A DNA stretch of 64,000 nucleotides. Source: Termitidicoccus mucosus. Lineage in GTDB: Bacteria > Verrucomicrobiota > Verrucomicrobiia > Opitutales > Opitutaceae. The translations under genes and the position numbers were made by a program. The stretch lies in NCBI RefSeq assembly GCF_038725785.1, contig NZ_CP109796.1:7378501-7442500 (forward strand), read 5' to 3'. The notes under the pieces are model-generated. The model was not told where the DNA came from. It saw only the letters and a list, made by a program, of their open reading frames with translations, and did no database searches. Of the stretch, positions 3,797 through 33,060 are shown in pieces. How positions within the stretch are numbered: position 1 is the stretch's first letter; each line of letters opens with the position of its first letter.

Positions 3797-4651
3797 ATGT
3801 GCACGCGGCGTTTCCCAACGACCTTTTTATTCATCGCGCTGGCGCCCGCTCTCGCGTTCATCGGGTGTCCCGCCGCGGAATCCGCGGCGCCGCGTCCGCG
3901 TCAGGTCGCGGTGCCGCCTGCGAAAATCCCTTTCCCCTACGAATCACTCGATGTGCGCAACTCGTGTTTCGTCGAGTCCGTGCATTTTTACGACGCCTAC
4001 CAACAATGGCGCGCCACCGCGTCCGACGGCGGCGATGCGGGCTGGGCGCGCGTGCTGCAATGGGGGCACCTTGATGACACCTCCGCCGTCGGCCTCGGCC
4101 ACGCCGTCGCCCTGTGCATGGACAACGGGAAACTCTGGATGTATGACGTGAATTTCGGCCTGTCGAAGCTTTCGGTCCCGGCCTCGCGCCGCGGCGACCT
4201 GACCGACGTCGGACCGGAGGTTTACGCGAAATACCCCCAGATCAACGCGGTGCTTGGCAGATATCGCGACGATGCCGGGCGGATTTCGCCGGCTGCCGCG
4301 CCGGCGCCATTCCTCGAAAACGACAAGAACGAGGACATCCGCGACGCGACCCGCGTGGCCAGCGAACTGGGCAGGTTTCGCCGCGCCCGGGTGTTTTTGT
4401 TCGATTACAAGGACTCCCGCGGACGGATGAGGCACGGCGCGGCGACGGCGTTTTCGTTTTCCAACCGCCTCTGCGTGTATTTCCCCGACAAAGGCACCCA
4501 CCTGTCGTCGCGGATGCGCGCCGTCGCCGTGGAGGACTTGCGCGTGATGCGGGGGCTCACCCGGCGGATTTATCCGGGGGTGCTGGATGTCCGCTGGCTC
4601 GAAGCCGCGCCGCCGCCGGATGCGAAAATGGCGGGGACTTCCGGTCCGTGA
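3797..4651 (+). CDS. Exported protein with a papain-like Cys-His-Asp pattern
   Basis: 284 residues from the ATG at 3797, chosen because it opens a signal peptide (TTFLFIALAPALAFIGC) with a weak lipobox at Cys24. The mature part has NSCFVESVHFYDAY with Cys57, GHAVALCMDNG with His102 and LWMYDVNFG with Asp117. This order and spacing fits a papain/transglutaminase-like or C39-like cysteine peptidase fold, where the Cys starts a helix and His and Asp lie on neighbouring strands. That reading is inference from spacing; I do not recognise the family. The gene is alone, upstream of the sigma factor operon. Confidence 0.5.
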   Translation: MCTRRFPTTFLFIALAPALAFIGCPAAESAAPRPRQVAVPPAKIPFPYESLDVRNSCFVESVHFYDAYQQWRATASDGGDAGWARVLQWGHLDDTSAVGLGHAVALCMDNGKLWMYDVNFGLSKLSVPASRRGDLTDVGPEVYAKYPQINAVLGRYRDDAGRISPAAAPAPFLENDKNEDIRDATRVASELGRFRRARVFLFDYKDSRGRMRHGAATAFSFSNRLCVYFPDKGTHLSSRMRAVAVEDLRVMRGLTRRIYPGVLDVRWLEAAPPPDAKMAGTSGP

Positions 4652-20177: not shown

Positions 20178-20261
20178 GCCCGGGTGGTGGAATGGCAGAC
20201 ACGACGGTCTTAGAAGCCGTTGCCGCAAGGCGTGCAGGTTCAAGTCCTGTCCCGGGCACCA
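20178..20261 (+). tRNA. tRNA-Leu (anticodon UAG), integration target
   Basis: The 84-base gene has acceptor GCCCGGG/CCCGGGC, a long variable arm (TGCCGCAAGGCGT), anticodon loop CTTAGAA with anticodon TAG, and encoded CCA. Its last 23 bases are repeated at 33038-33060, which marks it as the integration site of the element that starts here. The tRNA is left complete. Confidence 0.96.
20239..20261 (+). other. Left attachment site core
   Basis: The 23 bases from the T-arm to the CCA of tRNA-Leu are identical to 33038-33060. The core begins TTCAAGTCC and ends GGGCACCA. Confidence 0.92.
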
Positions 20262-20305
20262 CATAACAAGCTAAATTACAGATAGTTGGGAAAGAATCCC
20301 TAAAA

Positions 20306-20325
20306 TTACTGACAGAGTTCTGACA
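20306..20325. other. Possible integrase arm-type sites, left end
   Basis: CTGACAGA occurs twice in a row here (20309-20316 and 20320-20327). The 11-mer GAGTTCTGACA at 20315-20325 recurs in the same orientation at 32930-32940, 98 bp before the right core. Shared short repeats just inside both ends are typical of integrase or excisionase binding sites. Confidence 0.45.
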
Positions 20326-20369
20326 GAAAAGCCTTGAATCTGGCAGGAATCCCTTCACTACTCCCGGCC

Positions 20370-21665
20370 ATGAAGTCTTACGAATGGCCCGAACGGAGCA
20401 GCATCATTATTGCAGAGATTGAGAACATCAAAGCGGGGCTTGCCTATGGCACGTCGTGGCAAGTTCGCATTCCCGCCAAGCTCACGGGGGGCAATCGTGA
20501 ACGCCAACAGTTCCCCACGGAGGATGAGGCGAAGCGACATGCGGAAGACCGCCTGTTGGCATTGCGCAAGCACGGCTCCTCCTTTGCAGAGATTCCACCA
20601 ACCCAACAGAAGGAGGCCATAGCCGCTTGGGGGCTGTTGAAGGAAGCGGGGATTAGCTTCATGGAGGCAGCCCGGGTGGCTATCGATGTCCTCCGTCCGG
20701 CTGGCGGGACAAGGACACTGGCTCAAGTCTGCTCTGAGATGAGCACCAGCAAGGAGGCCCGGGCCAAGGCCGGGGAGATGGACATGCGGACGGTTGGGGA
20801 CTTCAAGCAAAGGACTGAAAGACTCGTGAAGGCCCTTGGGACCAAGCCCGTGAATCTCGTTACCGTTGACGACGTGAAGGATTGGCTGGACGGGCTCCGT
20901 AAGTGCTACTCTCAACGGACAACGCTGAACCATAGGAACTGTGTAGCAGAGGTCTTGAGGCACGCCAAAGCCAGCCGCTACGTCAAAGACAACGTCATGG
21001 AGTTCTTCACCCGTGAGGATTACGCCCGTCTTGGAGGGGAGAAGGCCATAAGGAAGACCTCCAATGCAAAGGCCCTCTCCGTAGAGGATGCCGGAAAGCT
21101 TCTGAATGCGGCGGCAGCGGAGAAGGGACGCCCCCTGCTTGGGTCTCTGGTGCTGCGTCTCTTTTGCGGACTCCGGACGGCAGAGACATACAAGATGGAT
21201 TGGAAGGATATCCATGATTCAGACTCCAGCCCCTTCGTCCACGTCCCGGAGACAATCGCCAAGAAGCGGAGAAACCGCCTTGTGACGCTGCCGGAGAACG
21301 CCCTTGCATGGCTGTCCCTTTGCACGAATCGGGAGGGCCTTGTATGCCCCGGGAATGACCAGAACCGCTACGGGGATTCCGTGGCTAAGTTGGCACGGTC
21401 TGTCCGTGTGAAGATTCCCAAGAACGGGACAAGGGATTCCTTTGGCAGCTACCATTACGCCTTGCATGGGGATTCAGTGAGGACGGCGGCTCTCATGGGC
21501 CATAAGCAAGGGGATGATGTCCTGTTTGCTCACTACCGGCAGCTGGTGCGGAAGGAGGATGCGGAACGTTACTTTGCCCTGTCCCCGGATGCGGAGGGCA
21601 AGAAGGTTGTTAGGTTCAGTGGCAGCATAGGCAAAGCCGCCAGCAAAGCCCGCAAGACAGCGTGA
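20370..21665 (+). CDS. int: Tyrosine recombinase (integrase)
   Basis: 431 residues from the ATG at 20370; a TTG at 20334 is in frame. The N-terminal part (about 1-130) should bind arm sites, 130-230 is the core-binding SAM-like domain, and the catalytic domain follows: Arg269 in GLRTAETYKMDW, Lys in AKKRRNRLVTL, Arg355, His378 in LMGHKQGDD and the nucleophile Tyr389 in FAHYRQLV. At box II the usual His is Asn352 (NGTR). The gene lies directly inside the left end and would catalyse insertion into tRNA-Leu. Confidence 0.93.
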   Translation: MKSYEWPERSSIIIAEIENIKAGLAYGTSWQVRIPAKLTGGNRERQQFPTEDEAKRHAEDRLLALRKHGSSFAEIPPTQQKEAIAAWGLLKEAGISFMEAARVAIDVLRPAGGTRTLAQVCSEMSTSKEARAKAGEMDMRTVGDFKQRTERLVKALGTKPVNLVTVDDVKDWLDGLRKCYSQRTTLNHRNCVAEVLRHAKASRYVKDNVMEFFTREDYARLGGEKAIRKTSNAKALSVEDAGKLLNAAAAEKGRPLLGSLVLRLFCGLRTAETYKMDWKDIHDSDSSPFVHVPETIAKKRRNRLVTLPENALAWLSLCTNREGLVCPGNDQNRYGDSVAKLARSVRVKIPKNGTRDSFGSYHYALHGDSVRTAALMGHKQGDDVLFAHYRQLVRKEDAERYFALSPDAEGKKVVRFSGSIGKAASKARKTA

Positions 21666-21694
21666 GGAGTATGGGACAGGACGGCCCCGGCCTA

Positions 21695-22166
21695 TATGAC
21701 CAGAGAACCGTTTTGGTTGTCCTTTGGATGTGACGGTTTTACCCTACCACCCTTATGACCAACAAACCGCCCAAGCGGGACCAGCTAGAGACCCAAGCTA
21801 AAGAAGCCAAGAAGGGTTCCCGTTGGTCTTCCGCTTGGGAAGTTCTCTGCCTAGTAATAGGCGTTCTAGTCTGGTTGTGCATTGTCGGACAAGTTCACAG
21901 CTACGTCACTAAGCCTTGAGAATGCCCCCATTGAGACATCCGAGAGGATTCTCTTGGGGTTGCTCCCCAAGGGGTTGGATAATCGTCCGACCATCGGGAA
22001 GGCCACCGAGGAGGAGCAAAATGAGACTTCTGCTATCCCCTCGACACCAAGCTCTTAGCTTTGGCTACACTTATGACCAAGAACGGCCCTGGCATCGGGG
22101 CTTAATGGCCGTTTTGAAAGTCCTTGAAATGCAGGCCGTTGGCTTTGGCCACATATATGACCAAGA
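21695..22166. repeat. Four TATGACCA repeats and a 25-bp direct repeat after int
   Basis: TATGACCA occurs at 21695, 21754, 22072 and 22156. The last two are part of 25-bp direct repeats at 22058-22082 and 22142-22166 (22 of 25 identical, core GCTTTGGC...ATGACCAAGA). The region between the integrase and the antirepressor holds only one convincing short gene (21755-21919), so these may be binding sites for an element-encoded HTH protein. Confidence 0.55.
21755..21919 (+). CDS. 54-residue single-pass membrane protein
   Basis: The short frame starts at an ATG within one TATGACCA repeat. The first 24 residues are charged (MTNKPPKRDQLETQAKEAKK), then comes one hydrophobic helix (AWEVLCLVIGVLVWLCIVGQV) and a 7-residue tail. 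Small membrane proteins at this position in prophages are often exclusion or holin-like factors, but nothing here proves that. The lack of other coding sequence nearby and the clean charge/hydrophobic split support it as real. Confidence 0.5.
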   Translation: MTNKPPKRDQLETQAKEAKKGSRWSSAWEVLCLVIGVLVWLCIVGQVHSYVTKP

Positions 22167-22289
22167 GGCCACCCCAAGGCCCCTGCTAATGCGACACAAT
22201 CTCGTCTGCGTATGAGTATCTGTATTCTGTGACATTGAAACTCCTTGAATCCCTGATAGTTCCCCCGAAAATCCCCGCTGCCGATTCCC

Positions 22290-22838
22290 ATGACACATCC
22301 ACACAATCACGCTCTAAGCTTCTTCAGCCATGACGCCCACGATGTCCGGGCCATCACCATTCGTGGCGAGCCTTGGTTCGTTGCGGCAGATGTCTGCCGT
22401 GCTCTTGACCTTCAGTTTGAAGGCGGGGCAACACGATACCTTGGCTATCTAAGCAAAGACCAGAAGCGTCTGTGTGCTGGAAGCACTCTCAACCGCCTTG
22501 CAGGAAGGCCCATCTTCCGGGGGCACAAGATTGCGCTTATCTCTGAATCAGGACTTTACCTGCTCATCTTCCGTGCCCATCGGTGCAACCCCACCGCTGA
22601 ACGTTTCCGCGATTGGGTCACCAGTGAAGTCCTCCCGGCCATCCACCGGGACGGCGCTTACTTCATGGGAGAGGAACGTGTGAGGACGGGAGAAATGAGT
22701 GAAGAGGCTTTGATGGAGAAGGCCGATAGGCTCATTCAAGAAAAGCTAAAACGAATCAAACAACTAAAAGATAGGAAGTTGGACGGCTCACCCTCAATAA
22801 TTGTTCCGCTTCTTCCACCCAACCACCACCACCAATGA
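22290..22838 (+). CDS. BRO-N domain antirepressor-like protein
   Basis: 182 residues. The BRO-N domain covers about 15-125: VRAITIRGEPWFVAADVCRAL, then ISESGLYLLIFRAHR, and RFRDWVTSEVLPAIHRDGAY, which is the classic end of this domain in phage antirepressors. The C-terminal 50 residues form a charged helix (EEALMEKADRLIQEKLKRIKQL). Such proteins bind DNA or a repressor and favour induction. The gene overlaps the next one by 4 bases (ATGA at 22835). Confidence 0.9.
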   Translation: MTHPHNHALSFFSHDAHDVRAITIRGEPWFVAADVCRALDLQFEGGATRYLGYLSKDQKRLCAGSTLNRLAGRPIFRGHKIALISESGLYLLIFRAHRCNPTAERFRDWVTSEVLPAIHRDGAYFMGEERVRTGEMSEEALMEKADRLIQEKLKRIKQLKDRKLDGSPSIIVPLLPPNHHHQ

Positions 22839-23182
22839 ACCCCACCAAGAACCCCGGTGGCAAAGCCACCACCAAAACCCCAATCCCTGAAGCCCCCTCA
22901 CTAACCCGGAAGGACGTTGCACGGCTCTTCCAAATCTCCCCCCTCACAGTCTGGCGCTGGGCACGAGATGGGAAGCTTCCCAAGTATCGTCTTGGGCCGG
23001 GCGTCGTCCGCTACCGCCTGTCCGATGTCACCAGACTTGCGGAGGCAGCTAGCCAAGAGTCCAACAGCAAGCCCGGAGTGAAGCCGGGAAGAGGCAGAGC
23101 CACCACCAGAAGCATTGGATACACCCTCCCCGAAGGAATCACTGAGAACATTCAGAGGCTCCGGCAGGGGCAAAGCTTGTAG
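22835..23182 (+). CDS. HTH DNA-binding protein (MerR/excisionase-like)
   Basis: 115 residues. A winged-helix motif is at about 22-65: LTRKDVARLFQISPLTVWRWARDGKLPKYRLGP followed by RYRLSDVTRL, as in the HTH_17 family of excisionases and phage regulators. N- and C-terminal tails are basic and low-complexity. It is coupled to the BRO-N gene, so the two probably act in the same switch. Whether it is the repressor or a second excisionase cannot be told. Confidence 0.8.
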   Translation: MNPTKNPGGKATTKTPIPEAPSLTRKDVARLFQISPLTVWRWARDGKLPKYRLGPGVVRYRLSDVTRLAEAASQESNSKPGVKPGRGRATTRSIGYTLPEGITENIQRLRQGQSL

Positions 23183-23206
23183 TAAACACCGATTGATTTT
23201 CACAGC

Positions 23207-23569
23207 ATGAATAAAAACCAAAGACACGTTATCCGGATACTAGCCAAGTCGTATCAGTTGAACCCCACCAGCATTTCTCAGTTACTCACAAAGAGCCAAA
23301 TGACCCAACAGGACGTGGCGGACTTTTGCGGGACCACGTGGATAACGGTTAGAGACTGGAAGCGGAAAGGATATCTGAAGCCATCCATGCGGAGGGAAGA
23401 CGGGGCTGATTTATTCAGTCTGGAAAGTCTGCAACTGATTTTGAAAAATGCGATAGGCTCCGGGCTGGCTCCCGGTCTCCTTTCCATCAAACGCAGAGGC
23501 CCCGCTAAAAAGCGAAAAACAGCGCCAGTTCCAACGACTCCGGAAACGGCGGAAGACTACGGCTTTTGA
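23207..23569 (+). CDS. Small HTH-like protein
   Basis: 120 residues. The segment MTQQDVADFCGTTWITVRDWKRKGYLKPS (about 31-60) reads as a helix-turn-helix followed by a wing, similar in type to its upstream neighbour but not in sequence. The C-terminal third is basic (RRGPAKKRKTAPVP). It follows the previous gene by 24 bp. Probable regulator of the element; family not recognised. Confidence 0.65.
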   Translation: MNKNQRHVIRILAKSYQLNPTSISQLLTKSQMTQQDVADFCGTTWITVRDWKRKGYLKPSMRREDGADLFSLESLQLILKNAIGSGLAPGLLSIKRRGPAKKRKTAPVPTTPETAEDYGF

Positions 23570-23996
23570 GGGAGATTCCGTCCCCCTAAGTTTCGACGGT
23601 CATTCTGTTGACGACGACTCCCCTTATTGACGACAACAAAAACAAGACATACAGGGAGTTGCCCCATTTCCGACAAAACAGGAGAAGACAATAAAAGACA
23701 AAAGAACTTCAGGCCCTCCCTAAGATACTAAGGAACCCTCCTGAGAAGTCCTTTTGATACTCAATGAGGTGTCTATGAGTCTCCTCATTGAGTAACTCTG
23801 GTTTTATTTAAAGTGTGTCTACGTAGTAGTATCTTTAAGAGAACCAGAGACCTTCCTTCTGTTCACCAGACGAACTCTAAACGAGGACCAGAGGAGAACA
23901 CTGGGATGCCTGTTTTGTTGGCCGTCTGCCATCGCTGAAGCATTCCCCGCCAGTGGCAATACCACCACCCACCCAAGAGGCTCCGTCTCCACCACC
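23570..23996. promoter_or_regulatory. Gene-free, AT-rich stretch with two inverted repeats
   Basis: No convincing gene in 427 bp. A perfect 10-bp inverted repeat CTCAATGAGG (23760-23769) and CCTCATTGAG (23783-23792) is followed at once by a wider one, CTCTGGTT (23796-23803) and AACCAGAG (23842-23849), whose inner flanks TTTAAAG/CTTTAA also pair. TTGACGAC occurs twice at 23608 and 23627. This may be a promoter/operator region or an origin; it separates the regulator genes from the rest. Confidence 0.5.
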
Positions 23997-24407
23997 ATGA
24001 CTACCACCACCACTCACCCCGCCCTTACCATTGACCCAACTGCCAAAGCCCGGCATGCCAGAGCCCTTGAAATTGAGGAGGTCTGGAATCAGGCCATCAT
24101 CCGCATGGAACAGTTCGCGGATGAACATGAGAACCCCCATGAGTTCCCGCTAGGCGAACGCCTCTCGTGGTGCCTCATGCAGCTACGAGTTTACCAAGTG
24201 CCGGAAGAGCTTGCCCCCGGCTTCATCCTTTCCGCCGTAGTCCCCGTGATTGTCCGGCTGGTATCGGCTGGCAGGATACGGGATGCCCGGAGAGTCGTTG
24301 AGGCTCTGAGGTCTGTTCCCGTTGACGCCACCGGAACCAAGCTCAAGGACGTTCTCACCGCAAGGCCCCTGCTCGACTGGCTGGGAAGAGAGCTGGGAGA
24401 TTACTGA
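23997..24407 (+). CDS. Element protein of unknown function
   Basis: 136 residues, soluble. After a Thr/His-rich N-terminus it is helical: ARHARALEIEEVWNQAIIRMEQFADEHEN, LSWCLMQLRVYQVPEEL, LRSVPVDATGTKLKDVL, LLDWLGRELGDY. There is no signal or membrane segment. I do not recognise it. It stands between two gene-free regions. Confidence 0.6.
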   Translation: MTTTTTHPALTIDPTAKARHARALEIEEVWNQAIIRMEQFADEHENPHEFPLGERLSWCLMQLRVYQVPEELAPGFILSAVVPVIVRLVSAGRIRDARRVVEALRSVPVDATGTKLKDVLTARPLLDWLGRELGDY

Positions 24408-24802
24408 AGAGGGTAGATACCGGTAGAAATTTTGCTAGTATCCACCCTCCCTGATTCCCGGCTCCCGCTTGCAGGCCCCTCCCCGGATTCTCTGCCGGAA
24501 GGCTTCAAAGTTTGAAGGCTTCTCCCTGCCGGAAGGCTGAGAATTTCTCAGGCTTTCAGCACACGCATGCCAAAACCGTCAAAATCGTGGAGGTTTTGTC
24601 AGATGGCTATGTCCATATGGACCACCCCTCTACCTCAACGATTTTGCGGGGGGCCGCACACGGGAAAGGGCCTTCCTGAAAACGACCTCAACCCCAATTC
24701 AACCGCCAACAACCCAAACCCCTTAAAACACGTGAACACGTGAACACTGAATCCCCTATCTCTGCTTCACCCCCAAGCTCCTCTTACACCAAAGAGAACC
24801 CA
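24408..24802. promoter_or_regulatory. Gene-free stretch with tandem palindromes
   Basis: CTGCCGGAAGGCT occurs at 24492-24504 and 24526-24538; each copy runs into its own 15-bp palindrome (CTTCAAAGTTTGAAG and CTGAGAATTTCTCAG). Further on, CAAAACC/GGTTTTG (24571-24577 and 24592-24598), CAAAATCGT/ACGATTTTG (24580-24588 and 24638-24646) and GTCCATATGGAC (24611-24622) are nested or alternative dyads. No gene is seen. Possible origin, packaging signal or regulatory RNA. Confidence 0.5.
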
Positions 24803-25102
24803 ATGCCCCTCCCGCTTGAGTTCACCCGGAAGCTCCCGGGAAGCAGCATCAGCCGCCTTCGCTACACCCAAGTCAAGAGAACCGGGAACATTGCCCTTTA
24901 TCAATTTGGCCGGATAGACCCGGGCTTTGAGGTTGTCAGAATACGAATAGCTAAGCCGCACTCTTTGCCTTCTGGAAGCTCTCTGCCTTGGCATGAGGTC
25001 TATCCGTCAACGGAAGACTTTGGACGCGATGGCTGGTATTACCGGCATGAGGAAGACGCCTTGAAGAAGTTCCATGAGCTGGCGGAGGCTTCCGAAAAAT
25101 AA
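24803..25102 (+). CDS. Element protein of unknown function
   Basis: 99 residues from the ATG at 24803; a GTG at 24740 would add 21 Ser/Pro-rich residues. The protein looks like a small beta-rich domain (SISRLRYTQVKRTGNIALYQFGR, GFEVVRIRIAKPH) ending in a short helix (DALKKFHELAEASEK). The core is similar in style to single-domain proteins that modify or bind other proteins, but I do not recognise it. It precedes the structured leader of the ejection operon. Confidence 0.55.
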   Translation: MPLPLEFTRKLPGSSISRLRYTQVKRTGNIALYQFGRIDPGFEVVRIRIAKPHSLPSGSSLPWHEVYPSTEDFGRDGWYYRHEEDALKKFHELAEASEK

Positions 25103-25200
25103 TGCTTGCCATCAGGCCCTCCATGACCTAACGCTACCCCCGCGTTTTTTACGGAGACGCCCGGCGTAGTAACCGGAGTTAGAAATACAGGATAAGATTT

Positions 25201-25271
25201 GAGGCCGCATCGAAAGCGGGGAGGGCTACTGTATTGGCCCAATTACTACCCCCGCCAGTAGGTGCGGCCTC
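25201..25271 (+). promoter_or_regulatory. Structured leader RNA with two competing inner stems
   Basis: An outer 9-bp stem GAGGCCGCA (25201-25209) / TGCGGCCTC (25263-25271) encloses two 6-bp pairings, GCGGGG (25216-25221) / CCCCGC (25250-25255) and CTACTG (25226-25231) / CAGTAG (25256-25261). The inner pairings interleave; with only 4 bases linking them they are unlikely to form together, so they look like alternatives. The structure ends 31 bases before the start of the next gene. Confidence 0.5.
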
Positions 25272-25302
25272 TCTATTGTCAGAGCTAAAACAACACACAC
25301 AC

Positions 25303-25965
25303 ATGAAACGTAACACCCGTAAAGTAGTAACCATCACCGGCAGCAACGAGGTCAAAGCCCTCGCCAAAGCCTGTGACAAAATCAAAGCATCCGCCCAGGT
25401 TCTTGCGGCCCTCTCTAACGCCAAGCAAGGAGCCTCCCGCCAGCAACACAGGAACCTTCATCTCTCCGTCGTCCTTCCAGATGGCATGACTCACACGAAG
25501 GCCCGGAGCCTCATCCGGTGGAGCCTTGGCGTTGAGCCGGAAGCTCTCATCACCAGTGCCATTGAACAGGCGTTGCGTGAGAAGACCTATCTGACGCCCT
25601 TTGAGATTCGCTTGGATGCCTCCAATGCCCGGAGGCTCCGGGAGTATGTCAAGGTGACCGGGGACACCAATGTTCTCACCGCCGCCGGTCTTGGCGAGCT
25701 TGTCGGAGAATACCTCAGTGAGGAAGGCCGTGTGAATATGGCCTATGACTTCGTTCTCTGGACTCAAGGCAAGGCCGCCCCCATCGCTCCCCCGGACGCC
25801 GGTGACCCGGAAGGTTCGGAGGTGTTTGACGTGAACGTCTCGAATGATGTTCTTGCCTTCGTCAAAGACCTCCCCAAGGCCAAACAGACCAAGCTCCTTA
25901 CGCCCATCATCAATGCGGCTCTCTTTGCTTGGCTCAACGAAAACACCGTGGAAGAAGCCGCCTAA
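25303..25965 (+). CDS. Element protein of unknown function, first gene after the leader
   Basis: 220 residues from the ATG at 25303. The N-terminus is basic (MKRNTRKVVTI), then helices (EVKALAKACDKIKASAQVLAAL) and a region VVLPDGMTHTKARSLIRWSLGVEPEALITSAIEQAL that may be a small helical domain. The C-terminal half ends in a hydrophobic helix pair (KLLTPIINAALFAWL). It is separated from the ejection operon by a terminator-like hairpin. Its place, between a structured leader and structural genes, suggests a late or packaging-related role, but I do not recognise it. Confidence 0.65.
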   Translation: MKRNTRKVVTITGSNEVKALAKACDKIKASAQVLAALSNAKQGASRQQHRNLHLSVVLPDGMTHTKARSLIRWSLGVEPEALITSAIEQALREKTYLTPFEIRLDASNARRLREYVKVTGDTNVLTAAGLGELVGEYLSEEGRVNMAYDFVLWTQGKAAPIAPPDAGDPEGSEVFDVNVSNDVLAFVKDLPKAKQTKLLTPIINAALFAWLNENTVEEAA

Positions 25966-25996
25966 GGCCCATCCCCATCCCATCATCATTCCAATG

Positions 25997-26031
25997 GACC
26001 TCCCGGCATCGTGCTTGGGAGGTCTTTTTAT
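25997..26031 (+). terminator. Terminator-like hairpin before the ejection operon
   Basis: GACCTCCC/GGGAGGTC, an 8-bp stem with a 12-base loop, is followed by TTTTTATTT. It ends only a few bases before the gp14-like start and its 3' arm contains the only GGAGG ribosome-binding sequence. Folding would therefore both stop transcription and hide the ribosome site. Confidence 0.7.
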
Positions 26032-26037
26032 TTCCCC

Positions 26038-26568
26038 ATGTGTCACCCTGCCGTTGGCTATGCAATAGCCGCCCTTAGCACCGCTGCCAGTATCGTTGGT
26101 CAGAACCAAGCCGCCAAGGCCCAGGAATCCTACCAAGAAGACCTGATAAAGACCAACAACGTCAATGCCACGAAGTCCTCGGAAACCCTCCGGGAACAAC
26201 AGGCGAACCAGCGAGAGGCCGCCTCCCGTGAGGCCGAGCAGGCCCGCATTGCAGGCCGCAAGGCCGCCGCTACAGCCTCCACCGCTGCCGGTGAGTCCGG
26301 CGTTGCAGGAGCCTCCGTGGAGGCCCTCCTTGGTGAGTTCAAGGCCGAGGAAGGCCGCTACAAGGAAGCCCTTGCCCGTCAGACCACGATTAACGACAGC
26401 AACACTGAATCCCAGATCGACGCCCTGAAGACGGGAGCCAGCTTCCAGAACATCCAGACTGCCCAACCCATCGCCCGCCCCAACTACTTTGCGGAGGGCC
26501 TGAAGCTGGGTGGGCGATGGCTAGATATTTATAACATTCAGAAGGCAAAGAAGCCGCCCCTTGTATGA
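26038..26568 (+). CDS. T7 gp14-like internal virion (ejection) protein
   Basis: 176 residues against 196 in T7 gp14. It opens MCHPAVGYAIAALSTAASIVGQ, like gp14 (short hydrophobic start with Cys2, then GQN-AK), followed by a long Ala/Glu/Gln helix (QREAASREAEQARIAGRKAAATA), the shared pattern GES...GAS and FKAEEGRYKEALARQ. gp14 is released first from the virion and forms the outer-membrane pore of the ejection tunnel. It is the first gene of an operon; its stop overlaps the next start by 4 bases. Homology is judged from pattern and gene order. Confidence 0.75.
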   Translation: MCHPAVGYAIAALSTAASIVGQNQAAKAQESYQEDLIKTNNVNATKSSETLREQQANQREAASREAEQARIAGRKAAATASTAAGESGVAGASVEALLGEFKAEEGRYKEALARQTTINDSNTESQIDALKTGASFQNIQTAQPIARPNYFAEGLKLGGRWLDIYNIQKAKKPPLV

Positions 26569-28790
26569 GTAATAAACAACCAAGAAAACAGGTAGAATCC
26601 CCCATCCCCCATTCTCCGGCCCTCCGCATTCCTGATGCCATCCGCTTCCCCTCAACGGCGGGGGCCGCCTCCGGGCGTGCCCGTGGTGCCATCATGAGTG
26701 AAGGCATGCTTCAATTGGCGGACGCGTTGGACGACATAGAGCCCGGCATTCTGGAATTAATCAAGAACCGGACGGCGGAAGACCAACGCGCCGCACTCAC
26801 CACCAGCGAACTCAAGGCCGCAGCCGAGGACTCAAAGACCAAGCTTGGCGTGCTAAATGGAAACCTCAAGGAACACCTTGAAGCCGGGGGCATCAGCCGT
26901 TTCCAGCTTCCGTATGCACAAATTGGATACTCAAGGAGGGCCGGGCAGGATATAGCATCCGCCGAACTCTCCACCCTCCTTGACTCACGGCTTGCGGATG
27001 CAACCAAGGCGGACGCCCCATTTGACCCGGAGGGCGTGATAAAGCAGGCCACCGATGAGATACGCTCACAGCTCCCCAAGGACAACGTTTACGCCCTCCA
27101 GGGCTTCCAGCAGGAAGCGGACAGGCAGGCGGAAACGTTCAGGCGCAAGGCCAAGGCCGTGCATGAGCAAAAGTTCGTTCAGGCCCAAGAAGCCCGCATT
27201 GGTTCCCGCATTCTGGACTTTGCGGACGCCTACGCCTTCTCGGACCCGGACAACAAGGACGCCATCAAAGCGGAGGTTCACCAGTTCATTTCCACCGTCA
27301 AGGAAGAGGAGATGCCCCGTCACCGTGTTGGCCCTCTGGTGGCATCCAAGGCCCTTGAAGCCGTTCAGGATATTCTTAGCCAGAACCCCACCGCCACCGA
27401 TGAAGCGGAGACCGTTCTTGACCTGTTCCATGACTATGACCTCACCGGACAGGGCGGGCTCTTGGGGAAGGCGTCGGCCTCCCGCCAGTTCTTCATCACG
27501 GCCCGGCAGGAAATACGGAAGGCGGCTGAGAAGTCGGAGACCGTTGACCTTGAGGTCACCAAGCGCAACGCCACCGATAGGCAGCTAGGGGCGGATGCAG
27601 CCCTTGCGGCCCTTGCTGAACTCGACGGACAGACACTCGACAAGGCAGCAAGGAACCGCCTTGCGGACTCCTTCCGGAAGAGCGAAGACGGTAGGAATCC
27701 CCAAAAGCTTTCCGGCTATCTCCAAACCCTTGACCGGGCCATCTCCCAAGCGGACAAACAGGACGACGATAGGGCACTTTCTACGGCCTCCCGGATGCTT
27801 GCCACGATTGACCCGGCCAAACTGGATGAGGCGGAAAGCTTCATCCGGCAGGCAGAGCAGAGAGGGGACCTCCGCGCCCTCACTGTTGCCCAACAGCTAG
27901 AACCCGCCTTGAGAAAGGCCCGGAGCCTGTCCAGCATTTATGACACACGATGGCTGGCGATTGCATCGACCAAGCTCTACGGGGAAGACGTTGACGGTCC
28001 CGGCACGCTCACCCCCACCTTCACCATTGAGGAAACCCCGGAGCTTCCCGGCCTCTCACAGGACGAACTCCGGGAACACCAACGCCAGACACTCTCATTC
28101 TTTGAGCAGGCGGCCCAACGCCACCTTGTGGAAATGTCGGAAGGTGACCCGATGAAGGCCGTCCAAGTTCGCGAAAAGGCCCGGAGTGAAGCCTATGTCG
28201 ATACGGTCAAATATGCGGAGAACCTTGCCAAGGAAATGACCAAGGCAAAGGTGTCCGGCCTGTCTGACAAGAAGGAGAAAGACCTTGAGGCCCGTGTAAT
28301 TCGTGGGGATGCCATGAGAGGCACCCTGTCCGTCGAGGCATCCGATATTCTGGAATCCCGCCCGGGCTGGCTGGCCAACCTCCGCCTTCTGCCCGACCCG
28401 GCAGCACTCGCCAAGAACTGGAAAGAACCCCATTTGCCAGACCCGGACAGCCAGAAGACACCCCGCCAACGCTGGCTGGAAGAGGTTGCCAGACAGTCTC
28501 CCGGCAGCGAACCCCACGCCTTGGCCTATGCCGTCGTAAAGAGCGCGGAAGGCTATTCGCTGGAAGAGATGAAAGCGGGCCGGACAAGTGAGGGAGTCCC
28601 CCTCAACCCCCGCCTCATTAACTGGCGAAACGTGCCCCTCTTCAAGAACCGGAAGGAACTGGAAGCGGCGTATTCAAAAAGGCAGGACAAGAACAGCGTA
28701 TTTAACGAGGTCCATCTCTTGGTTGACCCCGGAAAAATCCACAGTCCCCAAGAGCTTTACCAACAACAGGCCATCCTCCTTGGCCGATAA
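26565..28790 (+). CDS. T7 gp15-like internal virion (ejection) protein
   Basis: 741 residues, against 747 for T7 gp15. It is helical throughout, with no signal or membrane segment: LKAAAEDSKTKLGVLNGNLKEHL near the N-terminus, then LPKDNVYALQGFQQEADRQAE and DLFHDYDLTGQGGLLGKAS, a block resembling the internal-core proteins of podoviruses. In T7, gp15 forms the periplasmic tube of the ejectosome with gp16. Assignment rests on size, helical content, position between the gp14-like and gp16-like genes and translational coupling; sequence support is moderate. Confidence 0.68.
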   Translation: MSNKQPRKQVESPIPHSPALRIPDAIRFPSTAGAASGRARGAIMSEGMLQLADALDDIEPGILELIKNRTAEDQRAALTTSELKAAAEDSKTKLGVLNGNLKEHLEAGGISRFQLPYAQIGYSRRAGQDIASAELSTLLDSRLADATKADAPFDPEGVIKQATDEIRSQLPKDNVYALQGFQQEADRQAETFRRKAKAVHEQKFVQAQEARIGSRILDFADAYAFSDPDNKDAIKAEVHQFISTVKEEEMPRHRVGPLVASKALEAVQDILSQNPTATDEAETVLDLFHDYDLTGQGGLLGKASASRQFFITARQEIRKAAEKSETVDLEVTKRNATDRQLGADAALAALAELDGQTLDKAARNRLADSFRKSEDGRNPQKLSGYLQTLDRAISQADKQDDDRALSTASRMLATIDPAKLDEAESFIRQAEQRGDLRALTVAQQLEPALRKARSLSSIYDTRWLAIASTKLYGEDVDGPGTLTPTFTIEETPELPGLSQDELREHQRQTLSFFEQAAQRHLVEMSEGDPMKAVQVREKARSEAYVDTVKYAENLAKEMTKAKVSGLSDKKEKDLEARVIRGDAMRGTLSVEASDILESRPGWLANLRLLPDPAALAKNWKEPHLPDPDSQKTPRQRWLEEVARQSPGSEPHALAYAVVKSAEGYSLEEMKAGRTSEGVPLNPRLINWRNVPLFKNRKELEAAYSKRQDKNSVFNEVHLLVDPGKIHSPQELYQQQAILLGR

Positions 28791-28793
28791 AAC

Positions 28794-31700
28794 ATGCCCA
28801 TGATAACCGACAGTATGACCGCCCCGGAAGGCGAACAGGATTACCTCGACCAAGAACTGACAAGAGCCCGCCAGCGTTCCTTGGCCTCCCGCCCGGAAGA
28901 CGACACAGCACCAACCCCAAACCCGTCCGTAGTCCTTGACACTCTCGCCGCCCCCCTCCGGGGCGTTGCGGGGGCCGTCCAAAGCGTCTATGGCCTTGCG
29001 GACTCTCTGACAGGGGACGCTCTTCCCGATTGGGACGAGAATCCCCTTGGCAAGTCCCAAACCACCGGAGGGCAGCTGGTGGAGAACGTCGCCCAATTCC
29101 TTGTTGGGTTTGTCCCTGGCCTTGGCATCGCCAGCCGTGCCGGTGGCATCCTCAAGACCTCCATGCTTGCCCGGAGTGCCGCTGCCGGGGCCATTGCAGA
29201 CTTCACCGTGTTTGACGGCCATGAGGAACGTCTGAGCAACCTTGTCGAGAAGTTCCCGGCCCTCTCCAATCCCGTAACAGAATATCTGTCCGCCGATGAG
29301 TCAGACAGTGAAATAGAGGGACGGCTAAAAAACACGCTGGAAGGTCTCGCCCTTGGTGCCCTCTCCGATGGATTCATGAAGGGGCTCAAGGCCTATGCCA
29401 AGGCCCGCAAAGCGAAGCTGGCAGGGGCGGGGCCAGAAGCCGTTAACAGCATTCTGGAAACGGCGCCAAAGACGGACATTGAGGATGCCCTGATTAACCA
29501 GAAGAAACCCAAGGAAGTCCCGCCAGCCCCCACCACCACCACCGCCACCCCCCCGGAAGTCCCCGGCTCCGTCACCAAAGCCACCGAAACCAAACTAGCC
29601 AACGATGGCATTGATGGCTTGGCCCGGCTCGACGTTGAGAGCGGGCATCTCTTCCAGTCCCCGGAAAAGTCCATAGGCCGTTTCGTGGATGACTCTGACG
29701 GGATGGCATCATTCCTTGAGAAGCGCGCCGAGTTCATTCGTGAACGGGACGCGGCTGCGGGCCGGAAGAAGTCCCATGAGACTATGGAGGTTTCCCTAGC
29801 AAAGGCTGACGCGGTCATTAAAACCATAGCTAACAAGTCACCGGAAGCCATCTTTGCGGGCTTCCGGGGAAGTATCGCGGACATCCAGAAAGCCCAATCA
29901 ATGTCAATAGCAGCTTCAGACGTAATGCTGTCTATTGCAAAGGAGGCGAAGTATTACGCTGAACTCGTGGCGAAGGGAGACAGGAGCAACCAGAACATCC
30001 TTCAGGCCGCACGTTCCCAACAACAGCTCACGGAGCTTATCTCAATCGTGTCCGGCTTTGGAACAGCCCAGGGCCGGGCTTTGAAGGCCCGCCAGTTCAT
30101 CCGCCTTCAAGAGATAAAGACCGGGGAGATAGCCCGGCAGATTGTCAACGAACTTGGGGGCACTGGCTATTGCTCAAAGGAACTTGAGAAGCTGGCGGCT
30201 GCATCCTCCCCGGAGATGGCCGGTAAGCTCATTGCCAACCAACAGACGCTTGGGGGCCGCCTCCTCCGGGCTCACAATGAGTATTGGCTGAACGGCATTC
30301 TGAGCGGGCCAAAGACCCATATAGTAAATGCCATCGGAAATACCTTCACGACGCTTTACCTGCCTCTTGAAGGGGCTATAGGTGCGCTCTTCCGTGGGGA
30401 CGTGCCAGCCTCGCAAGCCTTCCTAAAACAATACGTCTACATCATGGAATCGGCAAAGGACGCTTTCAGCTTTGCAGCCCAAGCGTTCAGAACCGGAGAG
30501 CCCGTCTTTGACCGGGCCGCCCAACTGGCGGACACCAAGCCTTTCCGCAACGCCATTGATTGGGGAACCATCACCGGACGAACTGAACTCACCAGCCAAG
30601 GACTCATCCGGGAGGGCAGGGAGACCCTTGGGGCCTTCAAGAATCTTGAGTTCTCCGGTCTCTACCACATGGTCAACTTCCTTGGCGAGGCCGTGAGGAT
30701 GCCCATGCGGTTCCTCACCACCAGCGATGAGCTGTTCAAACAACTGAACGGACGCTCTGCCGCAAAGGCCAAGCTCTGGCATCAGGGACGCTCAAAGGGG
30801 CTCACCGGGGATGCCCTCTCTGATTACGTTGACGACGGTATCCAGAAAATCATTACCCAATCCGGGGAGGTTTACAGTGAAGCCGCCGTCACCCGTGAGG
30901 CCATCCGGCTTGCGGAAGAAAAGGGGCTTCAGGGAATCGACAAGGCGGACTTCGTTGAGAAGCACGTTGCGGATAATTGGGACCCCTCCCGCTCCGGTCT
31001 GGCAGAGTTTGCCGGGGTCGCCTCCTTTGCCCGTGGCGTTGCCCAAGAAGCAACCTTCACCCGTGAGCTTGGGGAGTTCACGCAAGGACTCCAAAACCTT
31101 GCCCGTAGGAATCCCCTGTTTCAACTGGTGCTGCCCTTTATCAAAGCACCCACGAACATCCTCAAGTTTGCTGGACAGAGAGCCTTTGCGTTCTCGACGC
31201 TGCCGGAGGGTGTTCAGTTCCCCATACTCTCTAGTATCCAGAAGCGTCACGCCTTGGAGATGGCGAGTGAGGATGCCCTGGTCCGGTCACAAGCGGCAGG
31301 CCGTAGCGTCATGGGGACAGCCCTGTTCAGCATGGGGGCCATAGCCGCCCTTGAAGGAAAGGTCACCGGCAGAGGGCCGGAAGACCCCAAGGAAAGAGCG
31401 GCTCTCATGGCAACCGGATGGCAGCCCTACTCACTCGTTTTCCCCAACGATGAGGGGGGCAGGACATACGTTTCCTACCATCGCTCAGACCCTGTTGCCC
31501 TGTTCCTTGGCCTTTGTGCCGATTGGTCAGAAGCGGCGGCCCGGCAAGACCCTCACAATGCGGAGGGGCTGGAAGCCATCATTGCAACAGCAGGGGTTGC
31601 CCTCTCCCAGAACGTCACCAGCAAGGGCTACCTTGCAGGGGTGTCCCAAGTTCTTGACGCCCTCAACCAGCCTCAACGACACCTTGAACGCTTCGCTCAA

Positions 31701-32354
31701 CAACGCATTGCCTCCTACGTCCCCAACATCCTCAACCAAGTGAGGGGAACACTCGACGGAGACAACGCCTTGAGAGAGGTTCGCTCTTATTCTGACGCCC
31801 TGCTTAACCGTCTCCCCGGACAGGCCCGGAAGGTTGAGCCCAAGCGGAATCTTCTGGGAGAGCCCATTGATTCAGCCTTGGCCCAAACCCCTCTGGCTTG
31901 GGGCAACCCCTTCATCCGTTCACGGGAAAAGGGCGATGCCGTCTTTGACGAGATTGCACGCCTTGGGCACGGATTCAGTCAGCCCCCGGTGACCTATCGG
32001 GGCCATTCATTGCTGGACTACCGGAGCCCGTCCGGGCAGTCCGCCTTTGACCGATGGCTAGAGCTTCACGGGGAAGTAAAGCTGAACGGCAAGACTCTCC
32101 GGCAATCTCTGGAAGGGCTCATCAAGAGCACTGCATATCGGAAGCTCCCGGAGGCAGACCCCGCCTTTCAGGACAACCCACGGGCGGAAGCCGTGGGTAA
32201 GATCGTTAGTCGCTACCGGAGAAGCGCAATGGAACAAGTTCAGAAAGAGTTCCCGGAGCTTCACCAAGCCCTCAAGGTTGACGCTGAATCAGCCTTGACC
32301 CGCCGCAAGGAGGGGAGGGCTCGTCAGCTTCAAGAGCTTTTGGATAGTCAATAG
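28794..32354 (+). CDS. T7 gp16-like internal virion (ejection) protein
   Basis: 1186 residues, against 1318 for T7 gp16, starting 3 bases after the gp15-like stop. Landmarks are a Gly/Ala-rich amphipathic stretch near residues 95-140 (VAQFLVGFVPGLGIASRAGG), and a block at about 490-520, LRAHNEYWLNGILSGPKTHIVNAIGN, which I know from internal virion proteins of many podoviruses. The N-terminal lytic transglycosylase of T7 gp16 is not visible. In T7 the protein spans the inner membrane, drives entry of the first kilobase and opens the wall. Here a wall-cutting activity would have to come from elsewhere. Confidence 0.72.
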   Translation: MPMITDSMTAPEGEQDYLDQELTRARQRSLASRPEDDTAPTPNPSVVLDTLAAPLRGVAGAVQSVYGLADSLTGDALPDWDENPLGKSQTTGGQLVENVAQFLVGFVPGLGIASRAGGILKTSMLARSAAAGAIADFTVFDGHEERLSNLVEKFPALSNPVTEYLSADESDSEIEGRLKNTLEGLALGALSDGFMKGLKAYAKARKAKLAGAGPEAVNSILETAPKTDIEDALINQKKPKEVPPAPTTTTATPPEVPGSVTKATETKLANDGIDGLARLDVESGHLFQSPEKSIGRFVDDSDGMASFLEKRAEFIRERDAAAGRKKSHETMEVSLAKADAVIKTIANKSPEAIFAGFRGSIADIQKAQSMSIAASDVMLSIAKEAKYYAELVAKGDRSNQNILQAARSQQQLTELISIVSGFGTAQGRALKARQFIRLQEIKTGEIARQIVNELGGTGYCSKELEKLAAASSPEMAGKLIANQQTLGGRLLRAHNEYWLNGILSGPKTHIVNAIGNTFTTLYLPLEGAIGALFRGDVPASQAFLKQYVYIMESAKDAFSFAAQAFRTGEPVFDRAAQLADTKPFRNAIDWGTITGRTELTSQGLIREGRETLGAFKNLEFSGLYHMVNFLGEAVRMPMRFLTTSDELFKQLNGRSAAKAKLWHQGRSKGLTGDALSDYVDDGIQKIITQSGEVYSEAAVTREAIRLAEEKGLQGIDKADFVEKHVADNWDPSRSGLAEFAGVASFARGVAQEATFTRELGEFTQGLQNLARRNPLFQLVLPFIKAPTNILKFAGQRAFAFSTLPEGVQFPILSSIQKRHALEMASEDALVRSQAAGRSVMGTALFSMGAIAALEGKVTGRGPEDPKERAALMATGWQPYSLVFPNDEGGRTYVSYHRSDPVALFLGLCADWSEAAARQDPHNAEGLEAIIATAGVALSQNVTSKGYLAGVSQVLDALNQPQRHLERFAQQRIASYVPNILNQVRGTLDGDNALREVRSYSDALLNRLPGQARKVEPKRNLLGEPIDSALAQTPLAWGNPFIRSREKGDAVFDEIARLGHGFSQPPVTYRGHSLLDYRSPSGQSAFDRWLELHGEVKLNGKTLRQSLEGLIKSTAYRKLPEADPAFQDNPRAEAVGKIVSRYRRSAMEQVQKEFPELHQALKVDAESALTRRKEGRARQLQELLDSQ

Positions 32355-32666
32355 ACCAACCGCCAGCGTTCCCAAGCCGTCCTTCTGGGTTTCCCGGAGG
32401 GGCGGCCTTGGCGGACTGGCGGGGCAACTTGGGGAAAAAATCTGAGCTGATATATACGTAGCGGGGCGCGGAGATTCCCCCCGTGCCCCCTCCCTTCCTA
32501 CGCACGGGCGCGCATGACGCGTTACGCTCACACGCTCACGCGCACGATACCGCGTCTAGGCGTGTGGGCGCGTAGGAATCCCACTCAAGTTCCCCCATGA
32601 ACCAAAGCAAAACAAACACTCCCGGCCCCTTGAAAGCTCACAGAGCCCAACAGGGCGGGAATCAGA
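32355..32666. other. Gene-free stretch after the ejection operon
   Basis: 312 bp without a convincing gene. It includes G+C-rich alternating sequence with repeated CGCTCACACGCTCACGCG (32526-32543) and GCGTGTGGGCGCG (32558-32570). No clear terminator was found. Confidence 0.4.
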
Positions 32667-32921
32667 ATGTCAAAGACAGCATTGGAAGGACAGCCTTCCT
32701 CATCGGTAGTGGCAAAGCCACGATCAGAGAGCATCCGAAGCAATCCTCCGGAGTGCATGAGCCGTGAAGAGGCGGCCATTTACCTTGGCGTCAGTATCCG
32801 ATGGCTGGCCCGCGCCATTGCCACCAAGAGGCTCCGCGTTGCCCGTCTTGGCCGTAGAGTCATTATCCGGCTGGCAGAGCTGAGGCGGCTTGTTGAGCTG
32901 GCGGAAGCCGTGGCAGCATGA
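32667..32921 (+). CDS. xis: Excisionase-like HTH protein
   Basis: 84 residues. A disordered N-terminus is followed by MSREEAAIYLGVSIRWLARAIATKRLRVARLGRRVIIRLAEL (residues 31-72), the HTH_17 fold of excisionases and recombination directionality factors. It lies 117 bp from the right attachment core, opposite the integrase, near a GAGTTCTGACA repeat. It probably bends DNA at the ends to favour excision. A regulator role is also possible. Confidence 0.75.
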   Translation: MSKTALEGQPSSSVVAKPRSESIRSNPPECMSREEAAIYLGVSIRWLARAIATKRLRVARLGRRVIIRLAELRRLVELAEAVAA

Positions 32922-32929
32922 CCGTCCCG

Positions 32930-32998
32930 GAGTTCTGACAAGTTCTGCCTGAAAATAAGCACTTCAGTGCACTTCCAGACATCTCAAGACATCTCGTT
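32930..32998. other. Possible arm-type sites, right end
   Basis: GAGTTCTGACA (32930-32940) repeats the 11-mer of the left end in the same orientation. AGACATCTC occurs twice close by (about 32979-32987 and 32989-32997). These may be binding sites for integrase or the excisionase-like protein. Confidence 0.4.
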
Positions 32999-33037
32999 TA
33001 CATCCGTAAGGCATTGCTCCTAGGTAAGTTAATCGGA

Positions 33038-33060
33038 TTCAAGTCCTGTCCCGGGCACCA
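33038..33060 (+). other. Right attachment site core
   Basis: These 23 bases are identical to the 3' end of tRNA-Leu at 20239-20261. On the other strand the core encodes the last residues and the stop codon of the flavin reductase gene that follows. Confidence 0.92.

Follow-up and report, generated by a model that had tools for sequence, protein, structure and literature searches.

A small integrated element in Termitidicoccus mucosus with T7-type ejection protein genes and a candidate phage genome-end site: a probable satellite of T7-like phages

Why should an integrated element carry genes for the ejection proteins of a T7-like phage, when no other virion gene is found in it? The question arises from a stretch of 64,000 nucleotides of Termitidicoccus mucosus (contig NZ_CP109796.1, positions 7,378,501 to 7,442,500; host genome of 7.92 Mb in two contigs), referred to here as the window. 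An earlier note, made from the sequence alone, had described three coupled genes for proteins of 176, 741 and 1186 residues with the order and approximate sizes of T7 gp14-gp15-gp16. Intact open reading frames (ORFs) were indeed present at this place, with gp15 overlapping the gp14 stop codon by 4 nt and a gap of 3 bases between gp15 and gp16. They are part of an element bordered by two direct copies of a 23-bp sequence, TTCAAGTCCTGTCCCGGGCACCA, which start at 20239 and 33038, 12,799 apart, and give the attachment (att) sites attL and attR (Table 1). The att repeats in tRNA-Leu, together with the failure to find further virion genes, bear out the note in describing an integrated element that keeps the ejectosome alone. 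We consider it rather likely that this element is a satellite, packaged by T7-like helper phages and supplying its own ejection proteins.

The assignment of two of the three proteins is secure at the level of family models. gp14 belongs to the T7_gp14 family, as judged from the matches to Pfam PF24072 (3.5e-28, 99.2 bits, cut-off 27) and to the internal virion protein family phrog_805 (4.8e-25). gp16 can be assigned with the same security to a family of T7-like phages, 'internal virion protein D'. It matches the internal virion protein family phrog_6651 in three stretches (2.1e-57, 195.9 bits), and tblastn detected 'internal virion protein D' genes of Autographiviridae with about 25-30% identity over up to 79% of the length. 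Among the 80 phage records found in this way, none above 80% coverage, 55 are from Pelagibacter, Synechococcus or Roseobacter phages. A direct link to T7 gp16 is suggestive only, with 5.2 bits in HMMER and a probability of 2.6% in HHalign, both near T7 residues 552-634. Because the N-terminal lytic transglycosylase domain was not matched (gp16 has no Pfam hit with an E of 1 or below), the protein was not classed as T7 gp16 itself; the direct link to T7 gp16 drawn in the note goes further than about 5 bits of profile score allow. The AlphaFold model of gp16 is poor (mean predicted local distance difference test value, pLDDT, 51.9), its best 50 Foldseek rows contain no ejectosome, and it was used neither for nor against the assignment.

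For gp15, no convincing sequence match was obtained in PHROGs, Pfam, NCBIfam or the PDB, and comparison with 17 phage gp15s by phmmer and HHalign gave nothing above control level. Phage gp15s do not always find each other either: that of L012 misses L007 and L061 and finds G278 (G and L numbers are our own labels for genomes and loci). The best PDB sequence match (E 5.6e-4) was rejected as a repeat artefact with TALE proteins. With a low-confidence AlphaFold model predicted from the single sequence (mean pLDDT 48.4) as query, Foldseek placed chain 9jyy_G, a T7 core protein, first among 350,542 PDB chains (E 0.075, prob 0.87); a cyanophage pre-ejectosome came sixth. VIA-align aligned model residues ~111-326 with chain residues ~90-350 of T7 ejectosome or core chains 6yt5_A, 7k5c_A and 9jyy_G and of 7eyb ('core proteins') at Z 7.0-7.8, a range which the tool calls common for helical models; six of the 19 top rows are phage ejectosome or core entries (6yt5, 8vb2, 7k5c, 9k2v, 7eyb, 9jyy). 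From synteny, size and this weak fold match, gp15 is likely a T7 gp15-type protein. In the profile and structure comparison which the note had proposed, gp14 and gp16 emerged as members of phage families by profile; the direct link of gp15 to T7 gp15 drawn in the note goes further than synteny, size and a weak fold allow.

Portal, capsid, tail and large-terminase genes were not found in the element by PHROG searches or by tblastn of T7-like phage proteins. In a PHROG scan of 11 element ORFs, head or tail families were obtained only for gp14 and gp16, apart from weak matches of three helix-turn-helix (HTH) proteins to phrog_57, the terminase small subunit (22835-23182, E 4.9e-4; 23207-23569, E 0.1; 32667-32921, E 0.0083). 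These matches each rank behind excisionase or regulator families, but one of the three proteins could be a small terminase or packaging adaptor. A panel of 108 proteins from nine T7-like phages was also compared by tblastn (E 1e-4) with twelve elements, the one in the window and eleven relatives. In the window element it matched gp14 and gp16 alone. Over all twelve, gp16 was matched in every case, gp15 in two, gp14 in one and an integrase-like protein in two, with no other match; one of the two gp15 matches is also made by a 204-aa protein of L142. In control loci G1031a, L012, L126 and L129 the panel covered most structural regions, and the PHROG scan of the window ORFs provides an independent check on the absence of virion genes. 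These results bear on the view that the element is an autonomous small virus, its capsid hidden among the three ORFs of 120-243 aa for which no family could be named. Relatives of these ORFs were absent from all loci compared, other elements included; with no large terminase or portal found and a length of 12.8 kb, we regard such a virus as very improbable.

The eleven relatives comprise one element in the same bacterial family (G037), nine in Hyphomicrobiales and one IMG/VR contig (L140). All contain gp16, broken in one of them, two also contain gp15, and no other virion gene was found. The search for such elements in other genomes, which the note had proposed, gave gp16 and in part gp15; gp14 was detected by the panel in the window element alone. 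Its own refuting case, capsid, portal and terminase genes of the same phage beside related copies, was looked for, and capsid, portal and large terminase were not found there within the limited sensitivity of the panel. In overlapping tallies that include the query genomes, gp16 was detected in three of 141 close relatives, in five of 372 genomes across the order and in seven of 387 across the phylum, and in 10 of 397 Hyphomicrobiales (the order of G739) and 6 of 248 genomes of the tool-defined family of G739. Apart from the own genome, the phylum tally is made up of six matches that are weaker and lie within ORFs of 567-4,910 aa. The nearest relative, G037, has a gp16 with 51% identity, a serine recombinase recognised by eye and a Bro-N protein; neither gp14 nor gp15 was detectable there. 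In G738, G739, G740, G791, G828, G862, G891, G1019 and G1110, all Hyphomicrobiales, gp16 is present and T7 structural genes were undetected in the stretches read; L140 likewise has gp16 and no T7 structural genes detected. gp15 is also present in G739, an intact element of Methylobacterium oryzihabitans TER-1, where it has CHAP and lysozyme-like domains, and in L140. The broken gp16 is that of G740, and G741 is a remnant. Exact tRNA att repeats were found for G739 (19,899 bp), G1110 (13,927 bp), G828 (19,972 bp), G791 (20,328 bp) and G862 (19,249 bp), and also, at 3,819, for the G741 remnant. In G738 the repeat is 19 bp long and no tRNA was detected with it, and in G740 19 of 22 positions match; no att repeat was found for G891 and no tRNA match for G1019 and G037.

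Many of the Hyphomicrobiales elements have a common backbone of integrase types, a small resolvase, a phrog_4756 protein and a 253-aa cysteine/histidine-rich protein, which was not found in the phage loci compared. The phrog_4756 family occurs in 19 of 249 Hyphomicrobiales genomes, and a profile search of 17 phrog_4756 loci from 16 of these genomes revealed gp16 in none. Three of five gp16-less loci that were read contain Type I or IIG restriction genes (the family includes L172, L177 and L178). In Hyphomicrobiales, gp16 thus seems to be a cargo that recurs within a larger family of elements. On L140 (11966-16315), PDC-S28, a candidate for a defence function, and a TIR-like protein are encoded beside gp15 and gp16. 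The restriction genes and this arrangement on L140 would suit ejection proteins that serve as anti-phage cargo, acting as decoy core proteins which poison or exclude T7-like phages and not for the element's own transfer. A full-length set of three genes and a packaging-type site suit use in particles better, however, and defence and satellite life are compatible, as PMC10803314 indicates for PICMI (phage-inducible chromosomal minimalist islands). The decoy explanation is therefore unlikely, if less so than the other alternatives considered here. Other gp16-like stretches were seen within ORFs of ~2,200-4,900 aa (L038, L052, L054, L055, L057; G1272, G1146), possibly giant polyvalent phage proteins, and the contigs of G278, G334, G347, G856, G1031, G1139 and G1212 resemble ordinary phages or prophages, partly as judged by eye. 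Left of the G891 element (L096/L095), an apparent siphovirus tail cluster was recognised by eye, perhaps a prophage in the same tRNA.

The evidence connecting the window element with packaging is a 63-bp site about 80 bp past the gp16 stop. A profile begun from phage L012 alone and grown in phages only, at no stage with the window, had its best match, the single one in the window, at 32435-32493. A one-row version gave E 0.0069 for this place; with six rows the value fell to 2e-5 and with ten to 1.3e-8, and the ten-row profile also matched G037 (E 2.3e-4; window and G037 together 104 kb). An 11-row phage profile gave a single match in the window, at 32435-32497 (E 5.9e-9, 31.2 bits), and a single one in G037, ~90 bp past gp16 (E 1.3e-4, 16.8 bits). 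Ten shuffles of 428 kb reached at most 9.7 bits and the reversed control was empty; the rows of this profile were gathered with the help of the window, and the profile started from L012 is the cleaner test.

In phages, the site is positioned behind terL, the large-terminase gene. The window and L012 sites can be aligned from end to end. A profile built from this pair was run on 74 phage loci, 1.1 Mb in total, of which 33 contain terL, and produced 14 matches, all of them 326-1600 bp downstream of terL on the same strand; L012 is itself a row of this profile, L195 duplicates L136, and the best reversed score was 6.6 bits. A ten-base core, located 1.3 kb behind terL in L012, had nine matches in the 74 loci, seven of which (two being duplicates) are behind terL on its strand. 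In T7, the terminal repeat, for which a length of 160 bp was computed on the sequence record, starts inside a match (E 3.6e-4) to a profile that had the window and G037 among its rows. Since the site is found behind terL in phages and the T7 terminal repeat begins within it, it is most simply read as a terminase or genome-end site of T7-like phages. In ProddE, a weak match (E 0.29) straddles the record start, where the terminal repeat is annotated as predicted, and a match at the record end of CRP-227 is weak by score (E 0.27). The CRP-114 and HTVC119P records extend ~480-750 nt beyond the site and that of CRP-114 is without an end repeat; they do not decide on the genome-end reading. L135, whose contig ends 13 bases into the site with no continuation at the other end, was not counted.

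The first trace of the site had been short matches outside gp16 in DNA comparisons of the elements with candidate helper phages. A six-copy profile then found G738 (2.5e-6), L178 (2.3e-4), G740 (0.0017), L176 (0.019), L136 (0.046) and G739 (0.2), L178 and L176 being two of the 17 backbone loci without gp16; another of these, L181, matched weakly (E 0.0039) in a further round. With an enlarged profile of this Hyphomicrobiales type, reversed sequence gave no match up to E 5. This version of the site was found in six gp16 elements and two loci without gp16, and behind terL in phages L136, L137, L139 and G1368. A search of whole records detected it in two of six phage records, once each, and missed the known copy in the L136 record; a single copy per phage is established for these two whole records alone. 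Among 2.9 million viral contigs, three matched an exact pattern of it.

That the site is another conserved phage signal, such as a terminator, promoter or replication site, or that it arrived with a captured gp16, would agree with its position directly after gp16 in the window and G037 elements. In phages, however, it stands behind terL, kilobases from gp16; the Hyphomicrobiales version lies at a distance from gp16, in the direction of the end remote from the integrase, and occurs in two gp16-less loci as well; and the T7 terminal repeat starts within it. Either alternative is therefore improbable, and a genome-end site inside the element supports the suggestion of the note that it could pack into a helper capsid, the packaging itself being a step that we infer.

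The phage contigs compared that are closest to the Hyphomicrobiales elements are L135, L136, L139 and L142 from IMG/VR, T7-like, 46-48 kb long and equipped with portal, capsid, tail-tube and terL genes. Their gp15 is 26-57% and their gp16, over a long part, 31-49% identical to those of the elements, and L136 and L139 bear the same site. That element sizes (12.8 and 13.9 kb; 19.2-20.3 kb) are integer fractions of a 40-kb helper is not claimed, given the 46-48 kb of these candidate helper contigs. In a first gp16 tree without candidate helper phages, the Hyphomicrobiales elements formed one clade. For a second tree, 16 rows were added, seven of them from L135-L142, and eight phage rows were dropped (L034, G334, L030, G347, L021, L022, L027, L020); the broken G740 and G741 are in neither tree. 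This tree of 39 gp16s was made by a quick method, and several of its branches are long. It joins the window and G037 as sister sequences at 100; those of the Hyphomicrobiales elements and of L140 are scattered among phages L135-L142. The labels phage and element change four times, at least three of the changes being forced by starred branches, and none of 500 shuffles was as low. One old capsid-less lineage was rejected on account of this interleaving. The ratio of nonsynonymous to synonymous substitution rates (dN/dS) of gp16 is 0.22 for G862/G891, 0.35 for G738/G739, 0.43 for G791/G862 and, roughly because dS is 1.4, 0.33 for window/G037. By this measure gp16 is under purifying selection in the four element pairs measured. 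The interleaved tree and these ratios fit a history in which gp16 was captured from T7-like phages, or exchanged with them, more than once and was then kept functional by selection, and not decay.

A decayed prophage, that is, a temperate T7-like phage which lost all but its ejection genes, has some basis. Temperate T7-like prophages seem to exist, since G1212 (L113) combines terL and matches to gp15 and gp16 with a tRNA-Leu and an ORF that by eye looks like an integrase, and gp16 is damaged in G740 and the G741 remnant. All three window genes are intact, however, and are accompanied by no other virion-gene match or broken phage-gene remnant; the same partial set is present in at least two separate gp16 lineages, with selection on gp16 in all four pairs; and many Hyphomicrobiales elements share a backbone absent from the phage loci compared, which is not so for the window element. 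Decay is thus a decidedly improbable explanation. L113 itself, apparently a temperate T7-like prophage, would connect the lytic T7-like phages with elements that integrate.

What was seen directly is an integrated element with this gene set, no other virion gene found and a phage-type site, and relatives of independent origin that share its plan. For a satellite of this kind, we infer a life cycle of excision on infection, packaging and incorporation of its proteins into particles. The element would reside in tRNA-Leu by means of its own integrase and be excised and multiplied when a helper infects. The helper terminase would recognise the site at 32435-32497 and direct element DNA into heads and tails made by the helper. 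In these particles, gp14, gp15 and gp16 of the element would form the internal core and, in the next cell, the channel through the envelope. As to why an own ejectosome is needed, PMC8954989 and PMC6042481 describe wild-type T7 gp16 as the presumed clamp that stops DNA entry after the first ~850 bp, transcription pulling in the rest, and state that with missense mutants of T7 gp16 the entire genome enters without transcription. A satellite without phage RNA polymerase or promoters would meet this entry block, and for this reason we prefer the idea that its own gp16 lets the whole element DNA enter without helper transcription, which is the least certain step. Alternative reasons would be that its proteins suit the host envelope better or that they interfere with the helper. 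A broader proposal, which we advance tentatively and rate somewhat below an even chance, is that widespread satellites, evolved several times, swap the helper ejectosome in stolen particles, with gp16 indispensable and gp15 and gp14 optional, so as to enter without helper transcription or to reach cells which the helper core proteins do not serve.

Several observations weigh against the satellite interpretation. The 108-protein panel missed tail genes recognised by eye in two of eight phage or prophage controls (G856, G1139), and diverged genes could escape it. gp15 is unproven as a T7 gp15-type protein, no replication gene was identified in the window element, and T7 gp16 gives no useful alignment. 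The window element and G037 share gp16, the Bro-N protein and, weakly, the excisionase-like protein and nothing more, and the window element has none of the Hyphomicrobiales backbone genes. The two types of site are linked mainly via phage L136: the 11-row phage profile scores Hyphomicrobiales sites at 7.9-13.2 bits and omits G738 and G791, and in a further round the Hyphomicrobiales profile reached the window, at 32460, at E 0.0049 only. Behind terL, that round found L113 (0.022) and L012 (0.77); among its controls, a block shuffle once gave 0.036 and reversed phage 0.28. G1110, L140, G891 and G1019 have no clear site (best L140, E 0.033). Finally, a tail-tube-B search for a T7-like helper was negative in 14 of 15 genomes; it is insensitive, missing control G856 and matching only control G1031, itself a row of that model. 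The T7 portal family PF12236 had no match in any genome, controls included, and is hence uninformative.

Table 1. Location of predicted genes and sites of the integrated element within the 64-kb window
Feature	Position	Strand	Basis or remark
Whole integrated element	20239..33060		~12.8 kb, between att repeats
tRNA-Leu(tag)	20178..20261	+	ARAGORN, Rfam tRNA
attL, 3' end of tRNA-Leu(tag)	20239-20261		23-bp repeat
Tyrosine integrase	20334..21665	+	phrog_1 1.3e-22
Bro-N / Ant anti-repressor-like protein	22290..22838	+	Pfam Bro-N 2.5e-15, phrog_130
HTH_17 regulator	22835..23182	+	Pfam 6.4e-10; overlaps Ant stop
MerR-like HTH protein	23207..23569	+	phrog_2474 3.8e-7
Unknown ORF, 136 aa	23997..24407	+	without family
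Unknown ORF, 120 aa	24740..25102	+	without family
Unknown ORF, 243 aa	25234..25965	+	without convincing family
gp14-type internal virion protein, 176 aa	26038..26568	+	Pfam T7_gp14, phrog_805
Putative gp15-type internal virion protein, 741 aa	26565..28790	+	lies between the gp14 and gp16 genes; length; weak resemblance in fold to T7 core proteins
gp16-type internal virion protein D, 1186 aa	28794..32354	+	phrog_6651, phage tblastn
Candidate T7-type genome-end / terminase (pac) site, 63 bp	32435..32497	+	phage-profile match; ~80 bp past gp16 stop
HTH_17 / excisionase-like protein	32667..32921	+	Pfam HTH_17 3.4e-6, phrog_66 6.7e-6
attR	33038..33060	+	direct repeat

The remaining features of the element are listed in Table 1. 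G+C content per kb is ~0.51-0.60 within the element and mostly 0.57-0.72 outside, although the region at 38-40 kb is lower still. The Bro-N / Ant protein is 48% identical to its counterpart in the G037 element (tblastn). In the gap between integrase and Ant, a TTATGACCAA-type motif is repeated at 21747-22174 (near 21753, 22071 and 22156), a candidate operator or iteron.

With regard to known satellites, an own recombinase and site-specific integration are present and a full set of particle genes was not found. PICMI of Vibrionaceae resemble the window element in being small, integrated, without capsid remodelling genes and in need of virulent phages, and some members carry restriction systems as cargo, as do some Hyphomicrobiales backbone loci; they differ in integrating beside fis, in amounting to ~1/8 of the helper genome, and in that ejection proteins are unmentioned in the part of the source available (PMC10803314). 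The window element lies outside the PICMI definition (beside fis, with an int, alpA and prim core), having a tRNA-Leu site and no primase found among its ORFs (PHROG, Pfam). The cf-PICI (capsid-forming phage-inducible chromosomal islands) also took a virion module from phages and arose in several separate radiations, but theirs consists of capsid genes and that of the window element of ejection proteins alone (PMC11389934). Nor is it a cf-PICI by definition, since own capsid or packaging genes were not found besides the weak small-terminase matches. The T7 gene 14-15-16 ejectosome (NC_001604) agrees in gene order, sizes and the gp14 family model, and differs in that gp16 of the window has no Pfam transglycosylase match, gp15 and gp16 give no useful alignment and no other virion genes are around.

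Known satellites redirect, shrink or replace capsids. A satellite with ejection or internal virion proteins was not described in the full-text literature searched, a body of text that includes few of the subscription papers. If the proposed life cycle is true, phages would here be parasitised by a new route, the replacement of the machinery for DNA entry, and T7-like phages would serve as helpers beyond the enteric world. The gp16 proteins of such elements would then be natural variants for testing how the T7 ejectosome meters DNA entry, and the common genome-end site may offer a sequence handle for finding such satellites, now unannotated, in genomes.

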